Of a DNA stretch of 64,000 nucleotides, positions 16,511 to 48,917 are shown piece after piece. The stretch is from Flavobacterium pectinovorum (GTDB taxonomy: Bacteria > Bacteroidota > Bacteroidia > Flavobacteriales > Flavobacteriaceae): the NCBI RefSeq assembly GCF_900142715.1, contig NZ_FRBX01000004.1, forward strand, positions 310,001-374,000, in the 5' to 3' direction. A program made the position numbers and the translations under genes. Below the pieces are notes generated by a model that had not been told where the DNA came from, ran no database searches, and worked only from the letters and a program-made list of their open reading frames with translations. Within the stretch, counting starts at the first letter, position 1, and every line of letters starts with the position of its first letter.

Positions 16511-18289
16511 ATGTCATTATCACAAATTCTTACACCTTCTATACAAAAATCAATACAAGCACTATTTGATGTTACTGTTGATAAAATCGAATTTCAAACT
16601 ACCAGAAAAGAGTTTGAAGGCGATATTACAATGGTAATTTTTCCTTTGTTAAAAATGACTAAAAGCAATCCTGCTGAATTAGGAAATAAAATTGGGAATT
16701 ATCTGGTTGAAAATGTAACCGAAGTGGCGCGCTTTAATGTTGTGTCTGGCTTTTTGAATATTGTAATTTCTGATAGTTATTATTTGAATTTCTTTAATGA
16801 AATCAAAGACAATTTAAAATTTGGATATGTAGCGCCGAATCCGAATGAAAAAGCAATTATGGTGGAATACTCTTCGCCAAATACTAATAAGCCTTTGCAT
16901 TTAGGTCACGTTCGTAATAATTTATTAGGATATTCTGTTGCTGAAATTATTAAAGCGTCGGGTAAAAAAGTCTATAAAACCCAAATTATCAATGATCGTG
17001 GAATTCATATTTGTAAATCAATGCTTGCCTGGGAAAAATTCGGAAACGGAGAAACTCCAGAAAGTTCAAATTTAAAAGGTGATAAATTAGTTGGTAAGTA
17101 TTATGTTGAATTTGATAAAGCTTATAAAGCCGAAATCAATCAATTAGTACAAGCAGGTAAAACCGAAGAAGAAGCAAAAAAACAAGCGCCAATTATTGTT
17201 GAAGCACAAGATATGCTGAAAAAATGGGAAGCTGGTGATGAAAAAGTAATAGATCTTTGGAAAATGATGAACCAATGGGTTTATGATGGTTTTGCTACCA
17301 CTTATACCAATCTTGGAGTTAATTTTGATAAATATTACTACGAAAGCAATACTTATTTATTAGGAAAAGATGTTGTTCAGGTTGGGCTTGATAAAGGTGT
17401 TTTCGAAAAAGATCCGGATGGTTCAGTTTGGATTGATTTAACCGATGAAGGTTTAGACCGTAAAATTGTATTGCGTTCAGACGGAACTGCAGTTTACATG
17501 ACTCAGGATATTGGAACAGCAATTCAGCGTGTAAAAGATATGCCGGATGTTGGTGGTATGGTTTATACGGTTGGAAACGAACAGGATTACCACTTTAAAG
17601 TTTTGTTTTTAATCCTGAAAAAACTTGGTTTTGACTGGGCTTCAAGTTTATATCATTTATCATACGGAATGGTGGATTTACCATCAGGAAAAATGAAAAG
17701 CCGTGAAGGAACTGTTGTAGATGCCGATGATTTGATGCAGGATATGACAGATACAGCCAAACAAATTTCTGAAGGGTTAGGAAAACTGGATAGTTATTCT
17801 GCAGAAGAAAAAGCAAAACTATATAAAACGATTGGTCTTGGTGCTTTGAAATATTATATTTTAAAAGTAGATCCAAAAAAACGTATTTTATTTAATCCTG
17901 AAGAATCTGTTGATTTTGCCGGAAATACAGGCCCGTTTATACAATATACATACGCGAGAATCCAATCCATTATTCGTAAAGCTGATTTTGATTTTTCAGC
18001 TAAAACAGCAATAGAAGAGCTTCATGAAAAAGAAAAAGAATTGGTAAAACAAATTGAACTTTTCCCGGAAGTAATTCAAAATGCGGCGCAAAATCATAGT
18101 CCGGCCTTAATTGCAAATTACACGTATGATTTGGTAAAGGAATATAACTCATTCTATCAGTCAGTTCATATTTTAGGTGAAACAGATTTAACAAAAAAAA
18201 TATTCAGAGTACAGCTTTCTCAAAAAGTGGCTGAGGTAATTAAAGCAGCATTTACTTTGCTAGGAATCGAAGTTCCGGAAAGAATGTAG
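16511..18289 (+). CDS. argS: arginine--tRNA ligase
   Basis: ArgS charges tRNA-Arg using ATP. The 592-aa protein is full length. It has the N-terminal tRNA D-loop domain, the class I signature in SSPNTNKPLHLGHVRNN (HLGH form of HIGH), the KMSKS-equivalent SGKMKSREGTVV, and a C-terminal helical anticodon-binding domain (DLVKEYNSFYQSVHILGE) ending in LLGIEVPERM. It is a single gene with its own -7 box and a strong terminator. Confidence 0.98.
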   Translation: MSLSQILTPSIQKSIQALFDVTVDKIEFQTTRKEFEGDITMVIFPLLKMTKSNPAELGNKIGNYLVENVTEVARFNVVSGFLNIVISDSYYLNFFNEIKDNLKFGYVAPNPNEKAIMVEYSSPNTNKPLHLGHVRNNLLGYSVAEIIKASGKKVYKTQIINDRGIHICKSMLAWEKFGNGETPESSNLKGDKLVGKYYVEFDKAYKAEINQLVQAGKTEEEAKKQAPIIVEAQDMLKKWEAGDEKVIDLWKMMNQWVYDGFATTYTNLGVNFDKYYYESNTYLLGKDVVQVGLDKGVFEKDPDGSVWIDLTDEGLDRKIVLRSDGTAVYMTQDIGTAIQRVKDMPDVGGMVYTVGNEQDYHFKVLFLILKKLGFDWASSLYHLSYGMVDLPSGKMKSREGTVVDADDLMQDMTDTAKQISEGLGKLDSYSAEEKAKLYKTIGLGALKYYILKVDPKKRILFNPEESVDFAGNTGPFIQYTYARIQSIIRKADFDFSAKTAIEELHEKEKELVKQIELFPEVIQNAAQNHSPALIANYTYDLVKEYNSFYQSVHILGETDLTKKIFRVQLSQKVAEVIKAAFTLLGIEVPERM

Positions 18290-18309
18290 AAATAAAATAA
18301 TTTTATTTG

Positions 18310-18339
18310 AAGCCGATAGTTGAAAAACTATCGGCTTTT
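18310..18339 (+). terminator. argS terminator (GCCGATAGTT type)
   Basis: AAGCCGATAGTT (18310-18321) and AACTATCGGCTT (18326-18337) form a perfect 12-bp stem with a GAAA loop and a T tail. The same 12-bp stem recurs at 23391 and 29795. Confidence 0.93.
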
Positions 18340-18391
18340 TTATGTTTAATAATTTAAAGTGTTATTTGTAAAATACTGTTAATTAGTAGAT

Positions 18392-18554
18392 TAATTTTGT
18401 AAATCTATTTTTTTTGTAGTAATTTTATTATATGACTAAATAGTTCTATGATAGGGAACTTATTTTTTATTTTTATCTATTTTGAATTAGTAAGCTTTTA
18501 GTAAAAATAAAAGGTGAAACCGTCTGAAATAGGGATTTTAGACGGTTTTTTTTA
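18392..18554 (+). ncRNA. candidate leader/sRNA upstream of susC-1
   Basis: TTTG at 18365-18368 and TAATTTTG at 18392-18399 (23-base spacing) could drive a transcript of about 150 nt. It would end at the intrinsic terminator at 18518-18554. The 3' part (18461-18554) is clearly related to 23531-23624 upstream of the second susC gene. Shared blocks include CTATTTTGAATTAGTA and the terminator stem, with one compensatory pair change. It lies between argS and susC and encodes no protein. It could be a transcription attenuator for the uptake operon or an independent small RNA. The sequence relationship is observed and the function is inferred. Confidence 0.55.
18518..18554 (+). terminator. terminator closing the susC-1 leader
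   Basis: AACCGTCT (18518-18525) pairs with AGACGGTT (18540-18547). The stem continues through GAAAT/ATTTT to an AGGG tetraloop, giving 13 bp. A run of eight T (18546-18553) follows. It lies 172 bases upstream of the susC start. Confidence 0.88.
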
Positions 18555-18725
18555 TTTTTTTGAAACATCGAATATTCATAAATTCTTCCCGTAAATTCTG
18601 TTAACACAAATTGATTATCCTAATTAAATAAGTAAATTCATCGTTTTAATTTGTTAAACGCTGCTAAAATATTGTTAAAATTGTTATTTTTTAATAATTT
18701 GCATGAATAACCTTAAACAATATTA

Positions 18726-21700
18726 ATGATGAAACAACAATTAAAAGGATTTATAGTATTTCTTTTAATGCTATCTCAATTAGCATTTTCACAAGAAAGA
18801 ACTGTTTCGGGAACCGTTTCTGATAATGCAGGTATGCCAATTCCGGGTGTTACCGTATCAGTTAAGGGAACAAATAATGCAACACAAACTGATTTTGATG
18901 GTAAGTACTCTATAAAGGCTTCACCAGATCAAATTTTGTTATTTACCTACATCGGTATGAAAGCAAATGAAGAACCTGCATCATCTACTACAGTGAATGC
19001 AAAACTACTTGGAGACGCTATGGAACTCGAAGGCGTGGTTGTAGTAGCTTTCGGAACTCAAAAAAAATCTGAGATTACCGGTGCGGTTACTAAAATTGAT
19101 GCCGCAGCTTTAGAAAATACTCAGGCCTCAAATGCAATTCAATCTTTAACCGGTAAAGTTTCGGGGGTGCAAATTAGTGCAAACTCAGGACAACCCGGAG
19201 ATCCGCCTCAGGTACGTTTTAGAGGTATCGGATCAATTTCTTCCTCAAATACGCCATTGTACGTTGTAGATGGTTTTCCGTACAACGGAGATATAAATGC
19301 CATAGCCACTCAGGATATCGAATCTATCAGTTTCCTGAAAGATGCCTCATCAAACGCATTATATGGTAGCAGAGGAGCAAACGGAGTTATTATTGTTACA
19401 ACAAAAAAAGGAAAAAAAGGGAAATTAAAAGTTACTTACGAAACTAAAATAGGAGTTAACTCAAGAGCTGTTCCTGAATACAATATGATTACAGATCCAG
19501 GAGATTATTATAAAACAGTCTATAACCGTATTAGAAATGGTTTGATTTACGACGGTGAAACAGCTGCCGATGCATCAACAATCGCAGCACAAACCTTAAT
19601 TACTGGGGATACTTATTCTTTAGGATATAACAATTACAATGTGCCTAATGATCAGGTAATAGATCCTGCCACAGGACAACTTAATCCTAATGCCAGATTA
19701 TTATATCACGATGACTGGGCCAAAGAATTGTTTAGAGACGCTACAAGAACAGAACATTTTTTAAGTTTATCATCCAGCACAGATAATCTTAGTTCCTATT
19801 TATCTGTGGGCTATCTTAAAGATGAAGGATATACAATTAATTCAAATTTTAAACGTGCAACAGTTAGAGCAAATGTCGATTACAATGTTACCAGCAAAAT
19901 AAAAGTGGGAACAAATTTAAACTTTGCCAATACAGATCAAAACGCACCAATATCTCAGGTTGGATCTGCTACTTATAGCAATTTATTTAGCTGGGCGAGA
20001 AATATTGCGCCAATTTATCCTGTTTGGGAAAGAGACGCCAGCGGAAATTTTGTAAATGACCAGGATGGAAATAGGGCTTATGATTTTAATGATTCAGGAG
20101 ATCGTCCATATGGAGCAAATCTTAATCCTTATGCCACAACATTATTAAATACAAATTTAAACGAAGAGAATAAATTTGGAGCGAGAGGATATGTTTCGAT
20201 TGATTTTTTCAAGGATTTTAATTTTAGATATAATCTTGGATATGATTTATTGTCCGGGTATTATTTAAATATCACTACCGGAGAAGGAGGAGACGATGAA
20301 GGTGTAAATGGTCGAAATTCTACCGCAACATCAAACGATTACACCATTACAAACCAGCAGCTTTTATCCTGGAAAAAAACATTCGGAAGTCATTCACTGG
20401 ATATCCTTGTCGGACATGAATCATCTGATTACAAATCAAAAATGTTAGCGGGCCAAAAATCTGGTGCGGTTATTCCAAATTTGCCTATTTTAAGCAACGG
20501 AACAAAATATGTATACGTAGATGGATATAACGATTTGTATAATGTTGAAGGTTATTTTTCAAGGTTAAACTATAATTACAAAGAAAAATATTTTATCAAT
20601 GCCAGTTTCAGACGAGACGGATCGTCTGTATTTGCACCTGAAAACCGATGGGGTAATTTCTATGGTTTTGGGGCAGCCTGGTCGATAATGAAGGAATCTT
20701 TCTTCCCTAAGTCAAAAGTGATTACAAACTTAAGAATAAAAGGTAGTTATGGTGAACAAGGAAATGATAATATATTTTATCCGGGAACATCACAAATAAG
20801 CCATCGTTCTTATTTTGGAAGTGCACGAAATTACTATGCTTACCAAACCCAGTATGAAATTGTACCAGACGCTGATGGAAATGCAAGTGTTCTAACAGTA
20901 TATCAGGGAAATAGGGATATTAAATGGGAGAAATCTGCCAATATGAATGTTGGTTTTGAAATTGAATTATTCAACAGAGTGAATATAGAAGCTGAATATT
21001 TTGAAAGAAAGGTGAGTGATTTAATTTATAATAAACCAAATTCGCCTTCAACAGGGGTTTCATTTGTTACTGAGAATGTCGGTGACATGAATAATAAAGG
21101 TGTAGAGGTTAATATAGGAATTGATGCCATTAAAACAGAAGATATTGACTTTAATATTTGGGTTAACGGGACTCATTATAAAAATGAAGTGACATCATTG
21201 CCAAGTCCATTTACAAACGGAATTTTTCGTTTTGAAGAAGGAGCTCCGGCTTACGCATTTTATTTGAGAGAATTTGCAGGCGTTGATAAAACAAATGGAG
21301 ATGCACTATGGTATATGGATGTAAAAGATGCTTCCGGAAACGTAACTGGTCGAACCACAACAAATGTTTACGGAAATTCAACGCAATATTTAAGCGATAA
21401 AGATGCAAACCCGGATGTATATGGTGGATTTGGAACAATCTTTAGATATAAAAACATAACATTCCAGGCTAGTTTTGCTTATCAATTTGGAGGGTATATG
21501 TTTGATGGTGTTTATCAAACTGCCATGTATTCAGGTTCAGACAATATTGGACAAAATTATCACAAAGATGTACAAAAAGCATGGTCTGTTGATAATCCAA
21601 ATTCTGATATTCCGAGAATTGATCATATTTCAACTTTACAAATGTCAGCTTCAGATTATTTCTTAATAAAATCAGATTATCTAAGCATACAGGATGTTTC

Positions 21701-21914
21701 CATATCATATGATTTTAAAAATAGCAGACTTGAAGATATCGGAATTCAATCTACTAAATTTAGTTTAATGGGTTCCAATTTAGCATTGTGGTCAGAAAGA
21801 AAAGGGATGGATCCAAGGTTAAATAATCTGGGGTCAAGAACCAATAATGGGCAATCCTTAAATGTATATGGAGTTATGAAAACTATTTCCTTTGGTTTAA
21901 CAGTAAATTTTTAA
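18726..21914 (+). CDS. SusC/RagA-type TonB-linked outer-membrane transporter 1
   Basis: This is a 1062-aa TonB-dependent importer. The signal peptide ends at QLAFSQ. A carboxypeptidase-like Ig domain (about 24-100) shows VSGTVSDNAGMPIPGVTV and TDFDGKYSI. Next come the TonB-contact and plug segment with AFGTQKKSEITGAV and ALYGSRGANGVIIVTTKKG (about 115-235), then the long barrel ending in F (SFGLTVNF). SusC proteins pair with SusD lipoproteins to import bulky nutrients. The susD gene starts 4 bases after this stop. No glycoside hydrolase or protease gene lies nearby, so the substrate is unknown. An ATG three bases downstream (18729) is an equally possible start. Confidence 0.96.
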   Translation: MMKQQLKGFIVFLLMLSQLAFSQERTVSGTVSDNAGMPIPGVTVSVKGTNNATQTDFDGKYSIKASPDQILLFTYIGMKANEEPASSTTVNAKLLGDAMELEGVVVVAFGTQKKSEITGAVTKIDAAALENTQASNAIQSLTGKVSGVQISANSGQPGDPPQVRFRGIGSISSSNTPLYVVDGFPYNGDINAIATQDIESISFLKDASSNALYGSRGANGVIIVTTKKGKKGKLKVTYETKIGVNSRAVPEYNMITDPGDYYKTVYNRIRNGLIYDGETAADASTIAAQTLITGDTYSLGYNNYNVPNDQVIDPATGQLNPNARLLYHDDWAKELFRDATRTEHFLSLSSSTDNLSSYLSVGYLKDEGYTINSNFKRATVRANVDYNVTSKIKVGTNLNFANTDQNAPISQVGSATYSNLFSWARNIAPIYPVWERDASGNFVNDQDGNRAYDFNDSGDRPYGANLNPYATTLLNTNLNEENKFGARGYVSIDFFKDFNFRYNLGYDLLSGYYLNITTGEGGDDEGVNGRNSTATSNDYTITNQQLLSWKKTFGSHSLDILVGHESSDYKSKMLAGQKSGAVIPNLPILSNGTKYVYVDGYNDLYNVEGYFSRLNYNYKEKYFINASFRRDGSSVFAPENRWGNFYGFGAAWSIMKESFFPKSKVITNLRIKGSYGEQGNDNIFYPGTSQISHRSYFGSARNYYAYQTQYEIVPDADGNASVLTVYQGNRDIKWEKSANMNVGFEIELFNRVNIEAEYFERKVSDLIYNKPNSPSTGVSFVTENVGDMNNKGVEVNIGIDAIKTEDIDFNIWVNGTHYKNEVTSLPSPFTNGIFRFEEGAPAYAFYLREFAGVDKTNGDALWYMDVKDASGNVTGRTTTNVYGNSTQYLSDKDANPDVYGGFGTIFRYKNITFQASFAYQFGGYMFDGVYQTAMYSGSDNIGQNYHKDVQKAWSVDNPNSDIPRIDHISTLQMSASDYFLIKSDYLSIQDVSISYDFKNSRLEDIGIQSTKFSLMGSNLALWSERKGMDPRLNNLGSRTNNGQSLNVYGVMKTISFGLTVNF

Positions 21915-21918
21915 GAAC

Positions 21919-23367
21919 ATGAGAAAATTAATTATACTTACATTGTCATTGTTCATATTCACAGGTTGTTCTGACGATTTTTTAGATACAGTGCCTGAGT
22001 CAACTATCAATGATGAACAACTTGCCACATCTGCTGCTGCAAATGCAGCGATTATAAACGGAGTTTATTCTGCACTTAGATCTTATGGATTATCGGTGTC
22101 TGGAAACCATGAAGATTATGGACACAAATCAATACTTGCAGCAACAGACATGATGTCAAATGATATGCTAATGACCAAATCAAGCTGGTATGGTTCTTTT
22201 TATAATTATTTGGGAAGACAACAAACAAACAGCAGATCGAGATTAGCGTGGAGTATCTACTATCCACAAATTAAAACAGTAAACGTGGTATTGACTGCGG
22301 TTCCGGCCGATGCTGCGACCGACGATGAGCTGAAGAAAATTAGAGGAGAGGCTTTGGCATTAAGAGGTTATTTTTATTTTATGTTAGCCCGCATGTATGG
22401 ACCAACATATATTGGAAATGAAGATGAACTTTCTGTGCCGCTTTATACTCAGGTGACTCTAGAAGGTGCACCAAGATCAACTGTGGCAGAAGTGTATGCT
22501 GTCATTGAAAAAGATTTATTAGAATCTATTCAATTATTAGAAGGAATTCCCAGTGGAGGTGTTGCTGCTGTAAATCAAAGTGTTGCACAAGCATTTTTGG
22601 CTGATGTTTACCTGGAAATGGGGAAATATGCTGAAGCTGCACCACTTGCTAACGCCGCCAGACAAAATTATCCATTGTTGTCAAAAAGTGTATGGTTAAA
22701 TGGTTTTTACGATCTTACACTTAACGGAGATACCATGTGGGGTGCAACGATAACTTCTGCACAAAGTAGTTTTGTGGCCAGTTTCTTTTCTCATTTTGAC
22801 AATACAAACGCTGATGGATATGCGGGAGGATTAGAAATTTATAAAAACATTGACAAAAATCTGTATAATAGCATATCAGATACTGATTATAGAAAAACTG
22901 CTTTTGTTGCACCGGGCGGAAGTACAATATATCCTTCATTACCGGAATATGCCAATATAAAATTTAGAGATCCAACGGTTGATGCCGGCGATTATATTTA
23001 TTTAAGATCTGCTGCAATGTATTATATAGAAGCTGAAGCTCTTGCAAAATCAGGAAATGAGCCTGGTGCAAGACAAGTTTTATATGATATTACTATAACA
23101 AGAGATCCATCATATGTCCTGTCTACCAATAGTGGAACAGCTTTAATAGATGAAATCATACTTCAAAAAAGGATTGAACTATGGGGTGAAGGATATGCCT
23201 GGTTTGATATGAAACGATTAAAGGTGCCGCTGACAAGAGATTATCCAGGCTCAAATCATGCAACCTTTGGAAAATTTAATATTCCTGTTGGAGATAACAG
23301 GTTCATATTCCAGGTTCCACAAGCAGAAATAGATGCCAACCCATTAATTGATCAAAGTCCATTATAA
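21919..23367 (+). CDS. SusD/RagB family nutrient-binding lipoprotein 1
   Basis: This is the surface lipoprotein partner of the SusC protein encoded 4 bases upstream. The 482-aa protein has signal peptide MRKLIILTLSLFIFTGC with Cys17 followed by SDD, which fits the flavobacterial surface-export signal. The typical SusD helices are present: LRGYFYFMLARMYGP, the TPR-like repeats, and near the C-terminus IELWGEGYAWFDMKRLKVPL and FQVPQAEIDANPLI. SusD forms the lid that captures ligand. The ligand cannot be deduced. A GCCGATAGTT-type terminator ends the operon. Confidence 0.95.
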   Translation: MRKLIILTLSLFIFTGCSDDFLDTVPESTINDEQLATSAAANAAIINGVYSALRSYGLSVSGNHEDYGHKSILAATDMMSNDMLMTKSSWYGSFYNYLGRQQTNSRSRLAWSIYYPQIKTVNVVLTAVPADAATDDELKKIRGEALALRGYFYFMLARMYGPTYIGNEDELSVPLYTQVTLEGAPRSTVAEVYAVIEKDLLESIQLLEGIPSGGVAAVNQSVAQAFLADVYLEMGKYAEAAPLANAARQNYPLLSKSVWLNGFYDLTLNGDTMWGATITSAQSSFVASFFSHFDNTNADGYAGGLEIYKNIDKNLYNSISDTDYRKTAFVAPGGSTIYPSLPEYANIKFRDPTVDAGDYIYLRSAAMYYIEAEALAKSGNEPGARQVLYDITITRDPSYVLSTNSGTALIDEIILQKRIELWGEGYAWFDMKRLKVPLTRDYPGSNHATFGKFNIPVGDNRFIFQVPQAEIDANPLIDQSPL

Positions 23368-23390
23368 AACACATTTATTTTTAAATAGAG

Positions 23391-23419
23391 AAGCCGATAG
23401 TTTTAAAACTATCGGCTTT
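23391..23419 (+). terminator. susD-1 terminator (GCCGATAGTT type)
   Basis: AAGCCGATAGTT (23391-23402) and AACTATCGGCTT (23407-23418) form the same 12-bp stem as at 18310, with a TTAA loop. The T tail is short. Confidence 0.88.
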
Positions 23420-23470
23420 ATTTGTTATTATTTAAACGTATTATCCCTACAAATACTTTCAGTCTAATAT

Positions 23471-23624
23471 TACTTTTGCATTTTATTATAGAAATAAATA
23501 CAGATTTCAGTCTGTTAAAAATACCCTCCTTATATTTATTTTTAACTATTTTGAATTAGTACCCTATTTAGTGAAGATTATAAAAGGACCACCGTTTGAA
23601 TTAATTTTTGAACGGTTTTTTTTA
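23471..23624 (+). ncRNA. candidate leader/sRNA upstream of susC-2
   Basis: TACTTTTG at 23471-23478 is a good -7 box, and a transcript from about 23484 would end at the terminator at 23591-23624, giving about 140 nt. The segment aligns with 18392-18554. Shared blocks are ATTTTATTATA near the 5' end, CTATTTTGAATTAGTA, an AAAAGG block, ACCGTnTGAA and ACGGTTTTTTTTAT. Where the first copy has C18524-G18541 in the terminator stem, this one has T23596-A23611, which keeps the pairing. No -33 box is evident. It is a leader attenuator or small RNA by inference. Confidence 0.55.
23591..23624 (+). terminator. terminator closing the susC-2 leader
   Basis: ACCGTT and AACGGT pair, and the stem extends through TGAA/TTTG to a loop of about 6 nt. 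Eight T (23616-23623) follow. The susC-2 start codon is 309 bases downstream. Confidence 0.83.
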
Positions 23625-23932
23625 TGTCTTTTTTTAAAGTTTTGTAAGATGGGATTCTAAAAATTATTAATTGTTTTTCGACATAAAAAATCTTAAAAAC
23701 TATCATTTTTAGTTTTAATAGAATTTGTTGATTAAAAAAATATTCGTACAAAGCAGAATCCTTATTTATGACATAACTGTTTTGTTGAAAATATGTTACC
23801 ATAAACTCCACTTAAAATTCAGAATTAAAAGTAATATTTTGGTTACTTTTTTAAATGTTAAATGATAATATTTTCTTGTTAAAATTGTATTAATTTGATA
23901 AGTTGCGCTCAATTAATCAAAATGATAAAATA

Positions 23933-26900
23933 ATGAAACAAAAAATGAAGGTATTTGGGATGCTTTTTTTTGCTTTTGCTATGCAGCTTACATTTGCACA
24001 AGAGAAAAAAATTACAGGAACCGTTTCAGACAATACAGGCATACCATTGCCGGGGGTAACTGTATTAATTAAAGGAACTCAAACCGGTGCGCAAACTGAT
24101 TTTGATGGAAAATATGCAATTAAAGCGGAATCAAATCAAATTTTAATATTTAGTTATATTGGAATGAAAACGCAGGAAATTGCGGCAAGTTCCTCGGTTA
24201 TTAATGTAAAATTAGCAGATGCTGCCGCACAAGAACTTGAAAGCGTTGTTGTAACTGCTTTTGGTATTAAGAGACAAAAAAAATCTTTGGGTTATGCTAC
24301 GACAACCTTAAAATCAGAACAGCTTACGGCTGTAGTTAATACAAATCCATTTGAAACACTTTCAGGAAAAATTGCCGGGGTTGATATTACTGCACCCTCG
24401 CAGCCTGGAGCTTCTACTAAAGTTGTTATTCGTGGTTTGAATACCATAACAGGAAATTCAGGTCCTCTATATATTGTTGACGGATCTCCAATTAATAATA
24501 CAGCAACAGGAACGAGTAATGACGGAGTTGCTTCTTCTAAAAGATCTTATGATTCAGGAAATGGTGTAAGTGATATTGATCCTAATAATATAGAAAGCAT
24601 GACAGTTCTTAAAGGAGCTGCAGCATCTGCCTTATATGGTTCAAGAGCAGGTGGCGGAGTTATTATCATTACAACTAAAAAAGGAAAATCTAATTCAGGA
24701 ATAAAAGTTGATATGCTTGCTTCAACAGAATTAAGCGAAGCAGCAAGAGTTTCTCACTTACAAAATCAATTTGGACAAGGCTGGAATGGCGTTGGATATT
24801 CAGGAACTAACACATACAGTAATGAAAATGGTTCTTGGGGACCTGCATTTAATGGAGAAGTGAGACCTTGGGGAACAGTATATAATAACAGTCAGCAAAT
24901 TAAACCTTATGTTGGATTAAAAAATAATATTAGAGATTTTTACGATACAGGTTTATTATCTACACAATCGATAAATCTTAGCGGTGGAGGAGATGCTTCA
25001 GATTTCTCTTTGGTGTTTTCAAATGTAAATAGTGATGGAATTATACCAACTGATGCTGATTTATACAGAAAACAATCGTTAGGTTTTAATGGTGGTTTGA
25101 AATCGAAAAAATTCACATTAAGAACCGCGTTGAATTATGTTTACAAAAATCAAAGTGCTGTAAACACAGGACAAGGTGATGATGCTGGCCAAGGATCTAC
25201 ATTACAACAGGATTTATTACAGATTCCGAGAGATATTAGTGTGGTAGATTTAAGAGATTACAAAGGAAATGTTTTTAATACTCCTGATTATTATTTCACT
25301 CCTTATTCTTCAAATCCTTATTTCTCAATTAATGAGAACAGTACAAAAATATATGGAAATAATATTTTTGGAAACGTAAATTTAAGTTATAAAATAACAG
25401 ATAAAATAACAGCTTCATGGCAAGTGGGCGGTAACTTAAGACAAGAAAGATTGAAAAGTTACGGAGCTATTGTAGATTATCTTCCAGGAACTCCACAGGC
25501 TATTGCAAAAACCAATAAAGTTGTAGGTGGAGTTACAGAAGGCAGATCTGAATATAGTGAGTTTGATACATTTTTCAATGTTAACTATAATACTAATTTA
25601 GGAGAGAATTGGAATTTTAATCTTTTAGGAGGTTTCAACTATAACAAAAGGGAATCTGATGAATTAACAAATTCAATAACAAATCTTGGAGTTGCTAATT
25701 ACTATGAGCTTTCAAACACTCCATTTAGAGCAAAAATTTTGCAAACTAACACTTTAAGAAAAACCGGGGCGGTTTATGCATCTGCAGAGTTTGCTTTCAA
25801 AAATAAATATTTTGCTACATTAACGGGCAGGGAAGACATTACATCTACTTTACCGATTGGCAACAATGCCTATTTTTACCCAGCTTTATCTTTAGGTGCT
25901 ATCGTAATTGATAATGGGGATACTTTTTTAAAATTAAGAGGTTCAGCTTCTAAAATTGCAAATGATACTAGTCCTTATTCAACTGAAAACTCATATGTTT
26001 CAGGGGTTGCTTCTGCTAATTTTGGACAAATTTTATCTCCGCTTGGAGGTATTAGTTACTATGAAGCCGCAGGAAAACTTGGTAATTCGGAATTAAAGCC
26101 AGAAACTACAATTGAATATGAAGTTGGAGCAGAAGGATCATTTTTCAAAAACAGAATCAATTATGATATTGCTTTATATCATAAAACAACTTCTGATTTG
26201 ATTGTGAACTTGCCTTTGGATCCCTCAACCGGATTTACAACTAAGGCGATTAATGCCGGAGATCTTGTAAATAAAGGTATTGAGCTTTCTATTACTGCAA
26301 GTCCAATCAAAAATACAAATTTCTCCTGGAGCGTGACTTACACTTTCACTAAAAACCTTAATGAAGTTACTAAATTAGCTGATGGTTTTGACCGAATTGA
26401 TTTAGCAACGGCCTATGGTATTACTTATTCGGCTGCTAAAGGAGAGCCAATAGGTACATTTTATTCTCAAGTTCCAAAAATTAATGCTGCAGGACAATAT
26501 GTAGTAAACGCAGATACAGGATTGTATGAAGTAAGTGGTGATCTTCAAAAAATTGGGAATTCGCAACGTGATTTTGTAATGGGACTTCAAAATACTTTCA
26601 AATACAAAAACTTTAATCTAGGGTTCTCATTAGACTGGAAACAAGGGGGTGAATTTTATTCATATACTAAAAGACTATCTCATTTCACAGGAAATGGTAT
26701 TGAAACTACTTATAATGACAGAAATCCATTTATTGTTCCTAATTCTGTTAATGAACACATTGATGTTGTAAAAGATGTTGTAACAAATGAAGAAAAAAAA
26801 GTTATCACTTATACAGAAAACACAACTCCTATAGCTTGGGATAAAGTATCTACCTTTTACAATACCTCAAATAATCCGGGCATCGAACCAACTCATGTAA

Positions 26901-27157
26901 TTGATAAAACATACATAAGATTAAGAGAAATTAATTTGACTTACAACTTCTCTTCTGATTTTACCAAAAATATCGGATTAAACAAAATGTCACTTGGTAT
27001 TTATGGAAGAAACTTATTCATGTGGACTCCGGGAGATAATCCATATACAGATCCTGAAGTAGGAACTTATGGAACTGGTGTACTTTCAGACTTTGGAGAA
27101 TTTGGATCTAACCCTTCACAAAGATCTTTAGGTGGAGTTTTAAAATTATCATTCTAA
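23933..27157 (+). CDS. SusC/RagA-type TonB-linked outer-membrane transporter 2
   Basis: The second SusC-type importer has 1074 aa from the ATG at 23933. The frame opens at a TTG at 23903, but that would precede the signal peptide MKQKMKVFGMLFFAFAMQLT. The order is the same as in the first copy: an Ig-like regulatory domain (ITGTVSDNTGIPLPGVTV, TDFDGKYAI), plug (VVVTAFGIKRQKKSLGYATT; ALYGSRAGGGVIIITTKKGKS) and barrel ending GGVLKLSF. The AFGIKRQKKSLGYA plug start marks a different SusC subgroup, the one that usually travels with SusD-like_2 lipoproteins. That matches the next gene, 14 bases downstream. Confidence 0.95.
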   Translation: MKQKMKVFGMLFFAFAMQLTFAQEKKITGTVSDNTGIPLPGVTVLIKGTQTGAQTDFDGKYAIKAESNQILIFSYIGMKTQEIAASSSVINVKLADAAAQELESVVVTAFGIKRQKKSLGYATTTLKSEQLTAVVNTNPFETLSGKIAGVDITAPSQPGASTKVVIRGLNTITGNSGPLYIVDGSPINNTATGTSNDGVASSKRSYDSGNGVSDIDPNNIESMTVLKGAAASALYGSRAGGGVIIITTKKGKSNSGIKVDMLASTELSEAARVSHLQNQFGQGWNGVGYSGTNTYSNENGSWGPAFNGEVRPWGTVYNNSQQIKPYVGLKNNIRDFYDTGLLSTQSINLSGGGDASDFSLVFSNVNSDGIIPTDADLYRKQSLGFNGGLKSKKFTLRTALNYVYKNQSAVNTGQGDDAGQGSTLQQDLLQIPRDISVVDLRDYKGNVFNTPDYYFTPYSSNPYFSINENSTKIYGNNIFGNVNLSYKITDKITASWQVGGNLRQERLKSYGAIVDYLPGTPQAIAKTNKVVGGVTEGRSEYSEFDTFFNVNYNTNLGENWNFNLLGGFNYNKRESDELTNSITNLGVANYYELSNTPFRAKILQTNTLRKTGAVYASAEFAFKNKYFATLTGREDITSTLPIGNNAYFYPALSLGAIVIDNGDTFLKLRGSASKIANDTSPYSTENSYVSGVASANFGQILSPLGGISYYEAAGKLGNSELKPETTIEYEVGAEGSFFKNRINYDIALYHKTTSDLIVNLPLDPSTGFTTKAINAGDLVNKGIELSITASPIKNTNFSWSVTYTFTKNLNEVTKLADGFDRIDLATAYGITYSAAKGEPIGTFYSQVPKINAAGQYVVNADTGLYEVSGDLQKIGNSQRDFVMGLQNTFKYKNFNLGFSLDWKQGGEFYSYTKRLSHFTGNGIETTYNDRNPFIVPNSVNEHIDVVKDVVTNEEKKVITYTENTTPIAWDKVSTFYNTSNNPGIEPTHVIDKTYIRLREINLTYNFSSDFTKNIGLNKMSLGIYGRNLFMWTPGDNPYTDPEVGTYGTGVLSDFGEFGSNPSQRSLGGVLKLSF

Positions 27158-27171
27158 AATTATATAGAAAA

Positions 27172-28599
27172 ATGAAAAAAATAGCAACATTAATTACAGT
27201 ACTATTCTTATTAGTCTCATGTGATGAAACATTTGATATTAATAGAAATCCCGATACTTTGCCTTCCGGACAAGCAAATAGTACTATCCTTCCTGCAGGT
27301 ATAGTGGGTCTTGCAGGTGCGCAAGGATCTTATTACGCTTTAATTGGCGGATTTTGGTCTCAATTTTGGACACAAAATAATACTTCCAATCAATATAAAA
27401 ATGTTGATTCTTATACTATTGGAACAAACGATTATCAACCAGCATGGACTGCTATGTACGATGCTTTGAATGATATCAGAGTTGTAAAAATACAGGCATT
27501 AGCAGAAGAAAACTGGAATTATTACTTAATGGCAACAATTCTTGAAGTAGAAGGCTCTCAGGTAATGACCGATTTATATGATGCTATTCCGTACGCTGAA
27601 GCAAATAATATAAATATTTTGCAGCCAAAATTCAATACAGGCAAAGAAACATACAATCTTATGATTGCTGATTTAAAATTAGCGCTATCAAAAGACCTAA
27701 GTTCTTCTAAGGGAACTGCACCTGCAGCTGATGATTTACTTTTTAAAGGTGAAATGGCTAACTGGACAAAATTTGGTAATACTTTATTGCTAAAATTACA
27801 CATGAGATTAACAGCAGCTGACCCGGCACTAGCCGAATCAGGAATAAAAGCATTAATCGATTCAGGTGCCCAATTTTTAGATGTTGATGCCGCATTGACT
27901 CAATTTGTAGATGCAGCCGATCAAAGTAACCCATTATATGAGTCTGACAGAAGAAAATTAAATAGTACTTTGAACCTTAAGGCTAGTAAAACATTGTACT
28001 CTTATCTACAAGTTAACGCTGATCCTCGTTTAAATAAATATTATGGAGCCGGAAGTCCAAATAATCAAGGTGATTTTGAAAATAAAGCAACCAATCTTTC
28101 CCAAGTATTATTAAGCCCGTTAACACCTGTATTTTTTATCAGTAAGGAAGAGAGCAGTTTTTTACAAGCAGAAGCACTAACAAGATATTATGGTGGAGCG
28201 GGAGCTAAAGCTAAATACGATTTAGGCGTTCAGGCTTCAATAACAAGATTTGGAGGAAACGCAGAAACATTTGTTGCTGCCGGAGGTAAATACGAATTTC
28301 CCGCAACAGGGACTGATGCACAAATTGAGGCAATTATTACTCAAAAATGGATTGCAAGTTTCCCCGGAAATGGATATGAATCTTTTCTGGAGCAAAATAG
28401 AACCGGATACCCAAAAATATCTAATGTTTCTCAAGTTAGCGAATCTTATGTTCCCGGACAATTTGCAGTATCTGTAGAAAATGTAACAGGAGGGAAATTC
28501 CCAAAAAGGATTGTTTTGCCTAGTATCGTAAAATCAAGAAATCCAAATGCACCGGCTTTACAGGCAATAACGGCTCCGGTATGGTGGAATGTTAACTAA
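27172..28599 (+). CDS. SusD-like lipoprotein 2 (SusD-like_2 group)
   Basis: A 475-aa lipoprotein with signal peptide MKKIATLITVLFLLVSC and the mature start DETFDINRNPDTLPSG. The NRNP start, the SQFWTQNN segment, WNYYLMATILEVEGSQVMTDLYD and FISKEESSFLQAEALTRY are features of the SusD-like_2 group rather than the classical SusD seen at 21919. It is the presumed ligand-binding lid for the SusC protein at 23933. It is followed by two more small lipoproteins in the same operon. The substrate is unknown. Confidence 0.9.
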   Translation: MKKIATLITVLFLLVSCDETFDINRNPDTLPSGQANSTILPAGIVGLAGAQGSYYALIGGFWSQFWTQNNTSNQYKNVDSYTIGTNDYQPAWTAMYDALNDIRVVKIQALAEENWNYYLMATILEVEGSQVMTDLYDAIPYAEANNINILQPKFNTGKETYNLMIADLKLALSKDLSSSKGTAPAADDLLFKGEMANWTKFGNTLLLKLHMRLTAADPALAESGIKALIDSGAQFLDVDAALTQFVDAADQSNPLYESDRRKLNSTLNLKASKTLYSYLQVNADPRLNKYYGAGSPNNQGDFENKATNLSQVLLSPLTPVFFISKEESSFLQAEALTRYYGGAGAKAKYDLGVQASITRFGGNAETFVAAGGKYEFPATGTDAQIEAIITQKWIASFPGNGYESFLEQNRTGYPKISNVSQVSESYVPGQFAVSVENVTGGKFPKRIVLPSIVKSRNPNAPALQAITAPVWWNVN

Positions 28600-28611
28600 A
28601 AAAAGCAAAAA

Positions 28612-29247
28612 ATGAAAAAAATATTTATACTAGCAATGATAGTTTCCGGACTATTGTTTACTTCTTGTGAAACAGATTCTACAGACCACGTATCGCAAAT
28701 AACGCATTACGCAAATATGTCCATGAATGGTGATGCGCTCGTTGTTTTAACGCAAGGCGAAACATATACAGAACAAGGGGCTGAAGCTGAATCTAGTGGA
28801 GAAAAATTAGATGTTAAAATTGATGGTACAGTTGATACAAGTAAACCAGCTGTATATAAAATTAAATACGCTGCAATAAATAGTGATGGATTTCCAGCTT
28901 ATATAACACGTACCGTAATTGTTTTAAGTGATAAGCCAAGCACAATAGATTTGTCTGGTACCTTTGTGAGAAGCGGTAACAACAATATTGTCACAAAACT
29001 GGGTGATAGAAAGTACAAATGCGATAATGCTACGGGATTTGATGTTAATGATAATAAAATAACTTTAGAATTCTATAATATAGATGATAAACAAATTTAT
29101 GCGCCATATCAGGAAAAAACTTCTACATCTGGTATTTCTGCAGAAAGCAACAACGGAATTATAACAGACCCGAACCATTGGCAATGGTCTATTATTGCTT
29201 CATCAACCTTTGGAACAGCAGATAGAAAATTTACACGATCAAATTAA
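28612..29247 (+). CDS. surface lipoprotein with DUF5011-like Ig domain
   Basis: A 211-aa lipoprotein with signal MKKIFILAMIVSGLLFTSC. Residues about 40-100 read as a bacterial Ig-like domain: VLTQGETYTEQGAEAESSGE and SKPAVYKIKYAAINSDGFPA follow the pattern 'a thing required to be extended yet evenly spaced' seen in DUF5011-type domains, ending in RTVIVL. The C-terminal half (LSGTFVRSGNNNIVTKLGD onward) resembles the second domain of BT_2262-like proteins. Such proteins accompany SusC/SusD pairs and probably sit on the cell surface as accessory binding modules. It starts 12 bases after the SusD gene and is followed closely by the gene at 29258. Confidence 0.75.
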   Translation: MKKIFILAMIVSGLLFTSCETDSTDHVSQITHYANMSMNGDALVVLTQGETYTEQGAEAESSGEKLDVKIDGTVDTSKPAVYKIKYAAINSDGFPAYITRTVIVLSDKPSTIDLSGTFVRSGNNNIVTKLGDRKYKCDNATGFDVNDNKITLEFYNIDDKQIYAPYQEKTSTSGISAESNNGIITDPNHWQWSIIASSTFGTADRKFTRSN

Positions 29248-29257
29248 AATTTTTAAA

Positions 29258-29743
29258 ATGAAAAAAATAAAACAATTTACAACAAGCATAATTGCAACAG
29301 TACTTATACTTTCTTCATTTATGGCTTGTGACGAAGTTGGTGAAACTACTACGGGAGGAACATCAGCTAAAAATTTGGCAGGTGAATGGTTTATTGATGC
29401 GTCTGATGCATCTGGAAAAGTTTCAGAACACGAATTATTTTCTACTTATAATACGGCAGCCAACAATAATACTTTGTGGCTAGACGATCAGAATTCGTTT
29501 AAAAAATTCAAAATCAAAGTTACTTTTGAGAAAGAAGGTTCATTTTCAGCTTCATCTGCTTCAAATGAATATGGTTCTGTAACAGTAACTATTACAAATG
29601 GTAAAGTTGAAAAAGAAGCTGCTGTTTCCAAAGGAGGTCATAAAGTTGATAAGATTTCCTTTAAAGCAGAATTCAGTAATGAGCCAGGAGTACTCTATTC
29701 TTATGAAGGAAGTAGAAGAACTGGTTTTAGTGAAGATGAATAG
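29258..29743 (+). CDS. lipid-binding-hydrolase-like lipoprotein
   Basis: A 161-aa lipoprotein from the ATG at 29258; the open frame upstream to 29195 only overlaps the preceding gene. The signal ends LILSSFMAC. The mature protein has LAGEWFIDASDASGKV followed by a run of beta strands (FKIKVTFEKEGSF, YGSVTVTITNGKVE, KISFKAEF), a calycin-like pattern. It resembles the putative lipid-binding family (PF12888) found as the last gene of SusC / SusD-like_2 operons. That assignment rests on context and general shape. The C-terminal acidic GFSEDE is short. The third GCCGATAGTT-type terminator closes the operon. Confidence 0.7.
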   Translation: MKKIKQFTTSIIATVLILSSFMACDEVGETTTGGTSAKNLAGEWFIDASDASGKVSEHELFSTYNTAANNNTLWLDDQNSFKKFKIKVTFEKEGSFSASSASNEYGSVTVTITNGKVEKEAAVSKGGHKVDKISFKAEFSNEPGVLYSYEGSRRTGFSEDE

Positions 29744-29791
29744 CAATGTGTTAAATTTTGAGATTGCAAAGTCTAAGGTTTCATTAAATAA

Positions 29792-29825
29792 AAAAAGCCG
29801 ATAGTTCCAGAACTATCGGCTTTTT
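29792..29825 (+). terminator. terminator of the second uptake operon (GCCGATAGTT type)
   Basis: AAGCCGATAGTT (29795-29806) and AACTATCGGCTT (29811-29822) form the same stem as at 18310 and 23391, here with a CCAG loop. It is flanked by A and T runs, so it can also serve the convergent gene at 29844. Confidence 0.93.
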
Positions 29826-29843
29826 GCAACTAACTCAAATATT

Positions 29844-30746
29844 TTATTTTACAAACTTGTTGATGATTGCATCAGTTTCTGCTTTTGTAGCATTTGGTTT
29901 CAAATCAAACAAAAGAGAATAAAGAGCTTTTCTGTCCACTTTAGCTTCCAGGTTTAGGTCTTGGTGTCTGTCAAAAAGAGTTTGCCATTTGTCACGAACA
30001 TTTTTCCAAAGGGCACTATTTTCCTTCCACCATTTTTGACCGGCAATACATTTAATGTCCGGAACTTTAGTATAAATATCCATTCCTTTTTCTTCTGCTA
30101 ATAAAACATCTTTTCCACTTTCATCTCTAATGAGTTTAGCGTTGTCTTGTTCGTGGTTCCAACCTGTAGCAGTGATTTCGTGAATGTTTCTTCTTTTTAA
30201 TACATTATAGTCGTTACGCTTGGTTTGTTCTCTTCTTGGCAGAGGAGCATCAGCAACGTTTGACCAGTAATTTTCTCCATCAACATGTACCCAAGTTGAA
30301 GATCCTTCATATCTTGGACTATCGTCTACTTGAAATACTTTTTGAGTCCATTGACCTTTAACGGCTTTCTTGTCTAATTTTTTATATTTCCAAGAGGTGC
30401 CCTTGTCAAATGAATATAAGTCTGTGTTTTCATAAAGCCAGTCTTGTCTCCAGTGTTTGATAATCATGTCGTCACTTACAATTAATAAGTGTTGCATTAC
30501 GATTTTGTTTGGAGTGTCTTCAAGTAACTCAACCCATTCCAATGCAGATTCGTGTTTAGTTTCTGAAGGCTTATAAGTAAGAGAATCCTTTGGGTATTGA
30601 AAAGTTTCAGTAAAATTGAATTTTACTTCATAACAACCACACATCGATTTAATCGATTTAATGTCTTGTTGCTTTTTATCCTGACTAAAGCCAAGACTGC
30701 ACGCCAAAGCCATTACGGCTGAAAAATAAAGACTTTTTGAAATCAT
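29844..30746 (-). CDS. DUF6607-like periplasmic protein
   Basis: A 300-aa exported protein with a Sec signal (SAVMALACSLGFSQ) and no lipobox. The mature part contains SMCGCYEVKFNFTETF, whose CxC could bind metal or form a disulfide. It then has a Trp/Tyr-rich beta region (IIKHWRQDWLYE, GTSWKYKK, GQWTQKVFQVDDSPRYEGSS) and a helical C-terminus. I place it with the DUF6607 family from memory; no activity is known. It is divergent from the TonB receptor and HmuY-like genes, with overlapping promoter regions, which suggests joint regulation and a role in haem or iron handling. Confidence 0.7.
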   Translation of the reverse strand: MISKSLYFSAVMALACSLGFSQDKKQQDIKSIKSMCGCYEVKFNFTETFQYPKDSLTYKPSETKHESALEWVELLEDTPNKIVMQHLLIVSDDMIIKHWRQDWLYENTDLYSFDKGTSWKYKKLDKKAVKGQWTQKVFQVDDSPRYEGSSTWVHVDGENYWSNVADAPLPRREQTKRNDYNVLKRRNIHEITATGWNHEQDNAKLIRDESGKDVLLAEEKGMDIYTKVPDIKCIAGQKWWKENSALWKNVRDKWQTLFDRHQDLNLEAKVDRKALYSLLFDLKPNATKAETDAIINKFVK

Positions 30747-48595: not shown

Positions 48596-48917
48596 TAAAT
48601 TATTTAAATTACTGATTTACAATGAAAAAACCTTCGTAGATGCGAAGGTTTTTTTTTGCTCCCATACCTCGGTTTTTGTTTTTTATGACATTGATTATCA
48701 ATCTTGTAACATATTTGCGATGTCAGATAAAGTTCTGCAATACTTTTACTACAGAAATTAAATAAAGCTAGCGTGTTTGATTTTCATTACTAGTAATCAG
48801 TTAATTACAAATTAATCATTTGTAAAAGTGGAGTTCTGTAACCACCTAAAAAACGAGGAGTATCTGAAAAGCCAAAAGAGTAGGAACAAACAAATCAATA
48901 AATTAAAATTTAATATC
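48596..48917. other. 322-base region upstream of the lectin gene
   Basis: It holds the two-component operon terminator (48625-48657), a 12-bp palindrome ATTACTAGTAAT (48786-48797), and AT-rich sequence. I find no clear TAnnTTTG box, so expression of the lectin may depend on an activator or another sigma factor. An in-frame extension of the lectin frame to 48828 is unlikely to be translated. Confidence 0.5.
48625..48657 (+). terminator. terminator of the kinase/LytTR operon
   Basis: AAAAAACCTTCG and CGAAGGTTTTTT pair over 12 bp with a 6-nt loop and a long T tract. Confidence 0.93.

Follow-up and report, generated by a model that had tools for sequence, protein, structure and literature searches.

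To our knowledge, control of SusCD uptake by small RNAs (sRNAs) after transcription has been described mainly from Bacteroides. The FopS sRNAs of B. thetaiotaomicron are multicopy, terminator-ended RNAs of approximately 65–70 nt that share a seed complementary to susC start regions, carry this seed in a single-stranded 5′ region that precedes the terminator, bear a site for the protein RbpB and block the translation of a susC in vitro at its start region; they belong to Bacteroidaceae, and their structure has reportedly been deposited in Rfam (PMC11697453). GibS of the same species, encoded at a single locus, binds the start regions of metabolic mRNAs (PMC7366714, PMC11697453). Rfp18 of Flavobacterium psychrophilum is a structured sRNA that is linked to metalloprotease mRNAs, widely conserved in Flavobacterium, including F. 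psychrophilum and F. columnare, and predicted to pair with its targets via one stem-loop (PMC9723704). OppZ and CarZ of Vibrio cholerae are released from operon 3′ ends, pair with mRNAs and repress their own operon (PMC7398697).

In this study, two stretches in front of the susC genes in a window of 64,000 nucleotides (the whole stretch of F. pectinovorum DNA that was analysed) were investigated together with their relatives. Judged by sequence, the two are paralogues that represent a single structured RNA (BLAST E 2e-12), in which a promoter-like box is followed by a long hairpin with an invariant apical loop of 19–20 nt (UUUUGAAUUAGUAnnCUUU) and then by an intrinsic terminator (Table 1). The initial annotation had described a shared sequence, pairing terminator stems in both copies, a compensatory change between them (C18524–G18541 against T23596–A23611) and TAnnTTTG boxes upstream, and all of these were confirmed; the shared sequence CTATTTTGAATTAGTA lies at 18477–18492 and 23546–23561 and has no other exact copy in the 5.6-Mb genome. 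A longer second hairpin (hairpin 1 in Table 1) with the conserved block in its apical loop, and the complementarity of this block to the start region of another susC, had been overlooked. Near-identical terminators (GCCGATAGTT..AACTATCGGC) stand at 18309–18340, after argS, and at 23390–23420, after susD1, and their word recurs at other Flavobacterium terminators.

Table 1. Features of the two RNA copies and of the surrounding argS–DUF6607 locus (window coordinates)
Feature	Position	Strand	Basis or remark
argS, constant upstream border	16511..18289	+	90–97% identical across species
Copy 1 promoter box, TAnnTTTG (−7 type), TAATTTTG	18392..18399	+	predicted RNA start ~18405
Copy 1 hairpin 1, whose long stem carries the seed loop	18460..18517	+	predicted fold; arm-swap test
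Copy 1 apical loop, the seed TTTTGAATTAGTAAGCTTT, complementary to the distant susC leader	18480..18498	+	pairing energies, fold
Copy 1 intrinsic terminator	18519..18554	+	stem 18519–18546 plus T run
susC1–susD1 cassette between the two RNA copies, variable across species	18726..23367	+	locus comparison
Copy 2 promoter box, TAnnTTTG, TACTTTTG	23471..23478	+	predicted RNA start ~23485
Copy 2 hairpin 1	23527..23588	+	predicted fold
Copy 2 apical loop containing the seed	23549..23568	+	fold, pairing energies
Copy 2 intrinsic terminator	23591..23624	+	sequence, terminator covariation
susC2–susD2 cassette with Ig-like and lipid-binding accessory genes	23933..29743	+	annotation
DUF6607 gene, constant downstream border, convergent	29844..30746	-	locus comparison

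BLAST recovered homologues from related genomes; these were aligned, and a covariance model was built from 14 homologues. Family copies are predicted to fold as two hairpins, although a few isolated minimum-energy folds deviate in detail. In hairpin 1, approximately 16 pairs form the stem under the almost invariant loop; hairpin 2 is the terminator. Both sides have changed in 4 of the 7 terminator stem pairs of the alignment. The lower stem of hairpin 1 is strongly variable in sequence with pairing kept (e.g. UCCAAAU/GUUUGGA, UCUCUUAG/CUAAGAGA and CCCUUUAU/AUAAAGGG). When the 3′ arms of hairpin 1 were permuted among 57 copies, which were treated without correction for relatedness, the copies' own arms gave −555.4 kcal/mol against −466.4 ± 13.8 kcal/mol for swapped arms, and 0 of 20000 permutations were as good. 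Most stem positions have several pair types, as tabulated from each copy's own minimum-energy fold; the upper stem alone gave no covariation signal above shuffles. A TAnnTTTG box occurs within 150 nt upstream of 35 of the 63 family copies, against 11.4 ± 3.1 in shuffles. Approximately half of the copies, many of them distal, have no clear box; such distal copies may arise from the susD message that precedes them. The seed box itself was rejected as a promoter element, because, as read from the sequence, TATTTTG has one base fewer than TAnnTTTG and is not accompanied by a −33 element at suitable spacing. The promoter box, intrinsic terminator and conserved structure expected of a trans-acting base-pairing sRNA, for which no open reading frame is needed, are all present, and the RNA is very probably an independent sRNA.

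The covariance model detected the RNA in 52 of the 398 sampled Flavobacterium genomes (species) at E ≤ 2e-6, with one or two copies each, and nearly all carriers have genomes larger than 4.5 Mb. These E values in 52 species, together with the BLAST match between the window copies, place the RNA family far beyond chance. Outside Flavobacterium, the model found nothing convincing in 299 genomes spread across the family Flavobacteriaceae; the sole match with E < 0.001 (G498) was rejected, as the intact seed is missing. A search of named genomes with an exact pattern yielded 49 stretches; one was labelled just Flavobacteriaceae, and the others all came from Flavobacterium, including F. johnsoniae, F. 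pectinovorum, F. anhuiense, F. denitrificans and F. chilense. In the distal copies L207:6545, L208:3964, L209:7034 and L198:10589, the seed is altered to GGATTAG or GGATAAG; such copies may have a different target or be decaying.

Complementarity indicates a distant susC as the target and not the adjacent susC1 or susC2, whose start regions pair weakly with the RNA and were rejected. The antisense match to the seed lies 145 kb away in the leader of another susC (G000:C9, approximately 183.4 kb, minus strand), which adjoins rpsL–rpsG and is followed by a SusD-like_2 gene. This leader (UACUAAUUCAAAAUAUUUAAAAAUGAA) is complementary to the RNA loop plus 5′ arm, with the AUG spanned, and the pairing includes a perfect 15-nt core in 53 of 63 copies; the whole duplex has a median length of 27 nt with one U–C mismatch, which stands mid-duplex in nearly all species. 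Among the 51 susC-type start regions of this genome, the rps-linked leader reached −34.6 kcal/mol against −20.1 kcal/mol for the next best; with a lead of approximately 14 kcal/mol over the other 50, it is a clear outlier. Compared with dinucleotide shuffles, the pairing gave z = −6.5 and −4.7 for the two window copies, and the seed loop is mostly unpaired in the predicted RNA. The 12-mer searched for occurs seven times in the genome, once antisense at a start codon; three further occurrences looked like chance and were set aside. The leader is present in 26 of 26 RNA-carrying genomes searched with a query that included the leader itself. It is conserved equally in species without the sRNA, so that it must be constrained for other reasons too and its conservation alone proves nothing. 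Because the seed is nearly invariant, there is little sRNA–target covariation to count; G103 has one compensating change plus one lost pair. The RNA's own stem also depends on the 5′ arm, which is the part complementary to the AUG region.

On balance, we consider it reasonably likely that a trans-acting sRNA pairs with the rps-linked susC leader and represses that SusCD importer. Each stretch would give rise to an independent sRNA of approximately 140–150 nt comprising hairpin 1 with the seed loop and the terminator hairpin, transcribed from its own promoter. Acting in trans, loop and 5′ arm would anneal to the AUG and the short leader of the rps-linked susC, and the duplex would block ribosome access, thereby lowering the default SusCD importer. 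By means of an sRNA encoded at argS–DUF6607, an alternative SusCD locus may be able to lower the default SusCD, which would balance the two systems; the RNAs that share the loop and lie behind M16-peptidase genes and ilvC would target the same message. Translational repression of the rps-linked susCD is suggested by the analogy with FopS, for which such repression has been demonstrated, and by the tuning of translation initiation in F. johnsoniae by A-rich bases immediately before the AUG (PMC6847099). If this mechanism holds, environmental flavobacteria would have their own level of sRNA control, in which the target is named and the seed is open to mutation, and the way in which one SusCD system turns down another would be explained. 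F. johnsoniae is genetically tractable.

The seed is also reused in other RNAs of the genus. Of the 398 Flavobacterium genomes, 116 contain the 16-mer TTTTGAATTAGTAAGC, compared with two matches for the reversed control, and its frequency in other genera is at chance level (three matches against two in the control). Among approximately 80 seed loci inspected, half are preceded by ilvC, and the seed there is embedded in a conserved stretch of approximately 350 nt that carries no annotation. Most of the other loci directly follow the stop codon of an M16-peptidase, thioredoxin-like or DsbD gene in a SusCD-type gene cluster. The loop was observed behind M16-peptidase, thioredoxin-like or DsbD genes at L354, L352, L393, L398, L403 and L409–L411. 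The ilvC–acs stretch L245 (G000:C4, approximately 1459560–1460000) is noncoding and strongly conserved, has a terminator of its own and carries the seed loop; its homologues are L227–L229, L232–L236 and L246, and the copies scanned had no Rfam match at E 0.1. Some folds of the seed-reuse loci expose the loop, and others do not clearly do so. Pairing with the rps-linked susC leader is also predicted for the ilvC and M16 versions (z = −4.9 and −4.3). Tentatively, and with somewhat less than even probability, the argS-linked sRNA, the 3′UTR hairpins of M16, thioredoxin and SusCD loci and the ilvC–acs RNA may form a genus-wide shared-seed network converging on one susC leader, in which case expression of an alternative peptide or nutrient system would silence the default SusCD importer. 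Autoregulation of the M16 operon via its own 3′UTR loop was rejected, as no antisense site was found in the M16 loci examined, some of which included the susC start.

The initial annotation had offered two readings, a family of small RNAs encoded next to SusC/D operons or a transcription attenuator for these operons, and the locus survey and the covariance-model homologues support the former. With neighbours identified using a small set of query proteins, the order at the locus is argS, RNA, zero to two species-specific susCD cassettes and DUF6607; in two-copy species, the RNAs usually flank a cassette at a distance of approximately 5 kb, as in the window. The interval at 18290–29843 of the window is a hotspot in which susCD cassettes vary and the flanking sRNA copies stay. 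A cis-acting leader whose terminator readthrough controls the adjacent susC would suit both window copies, which lie upstream of susC with the terminator in between; however, an attenuator should precede the gene that it controls and share its transcript. Approximately 20 distinct copies are followed directly by the convergent DUF6607 gene and not by susC; these include sites with nothing else detected between argS, RNA and DUF6607 (at least five genomes); examples of RNA and terminator between argS and DUF6607 without susC are L120, L126, L197, L217 and L218. The covariance search proposed with the initial annotation yielded homologues with further covarying pairs; many of these homologues do not lie upstream of a susC. 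Moreover, the adjacent susC is approximately 30–75% identical between species, whereas the RNA stays constant; each window susC has, as read from the sequence, promoter-like sequence of its own past the RNA terminator; and no alternative antiterminator fold is evident in the predicted structures. The empty sites, and the retention of the RNA while cassettes change, mark it as a constant element and not a susC leader, and attenuation, largely refuted by the copies without downstream susC, is highly improbable. Changing cassettes between persistent copies approximately 5 kb apart in several species could also mean that the repeats are homologous flanks for cassette exchange with no regulatory RNA role. 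Recombination requires DNA identity, yet the stems diverge with pairing kept, and single copies persist at empty sites, which leaves exchange flanks as a barely credible explanation.

Two further alternatives concern the role of the conserved loop. An sRNA with the same seed might act positively on the susC leader, for example by protection of a very short leader or prevention of decay, or might serve mainly other mRNA targets; the complementarity would be the same, and the pairing comparison covered 51 susC-type start regions. We regard this as unlikely, because the duplex would cover the AUG and the A-rich bases before it, which tune initiation (PMC6847099) and so favour repression, and because the single antisense start-codon occurrence of the 12-mer argues against other targets. 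It is distinctly unlikely that the shared loop is recognised by an RNA-binding protein, or serves as a DNA operator, and that its match to the susC leader is secondary. Recurrence of the loop in unrelated 3′UTRs and intergenic RNAs and the RbpB site of FopS sRNAs (PMC11697453) would fit a protein site, but the complementarity runs well past the shared loop over 27 nt including the AUG, and a covarying stem and a terminator would be superfluous in a DNA operator.

The repressor sRNA that we favour fits a general kind, the trans-acting sRNA with a susC target, and resembles FopS in being multicopy and terminator-ended with a shared seed complementary to the susC translation start region. In contrast to FopS, it is predicted to be about twice as long, its seed forms the apical loop of the covarying hairpin 1, and it is restricted to Flavobacterium. 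No FopS or GibS match was found in the window at Rfam gathering scores, and Rfam gave no match in related loci at E 0.1 or at 18370–18580 at E 10, in agreement with the earlier statement that no named RNA family fits. On the features tested, namely the Rfam match and the seed position, the RNA does not appear to be a FopS member, and its mode of action would be FopS-like by analogy. GibS differs in targets, seeds and sequence. As described, Rfp18 differs in its link to metalloprotease mRNAs and its wide conservation in the genus, whereas the argS-locus RNA family is confined to large-genome Flavobacterium species. OppZ and CarZ resemble the M16- and ilvC-linked relatives; however, they repress their own operon, whereas the apparent target of the Flavobacterium RNA is another locus and the window copies have promoter boxes of their own. 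As regards a 3′UTR-derived origin, a terminator intervenes between argS or susD1 and the boxes of the window copies, several distal copies have no clear box, and the M16-linked relatives stand directly behind stop codons. No description of the RNA was found in the open-access literature, to which the search was confined, and the family appears previously undescribed there. Elsewhere in the window, a DUF805 cis-regulatory RNA (RF03081, 68.9 bits) was recognised at 48823–48890.
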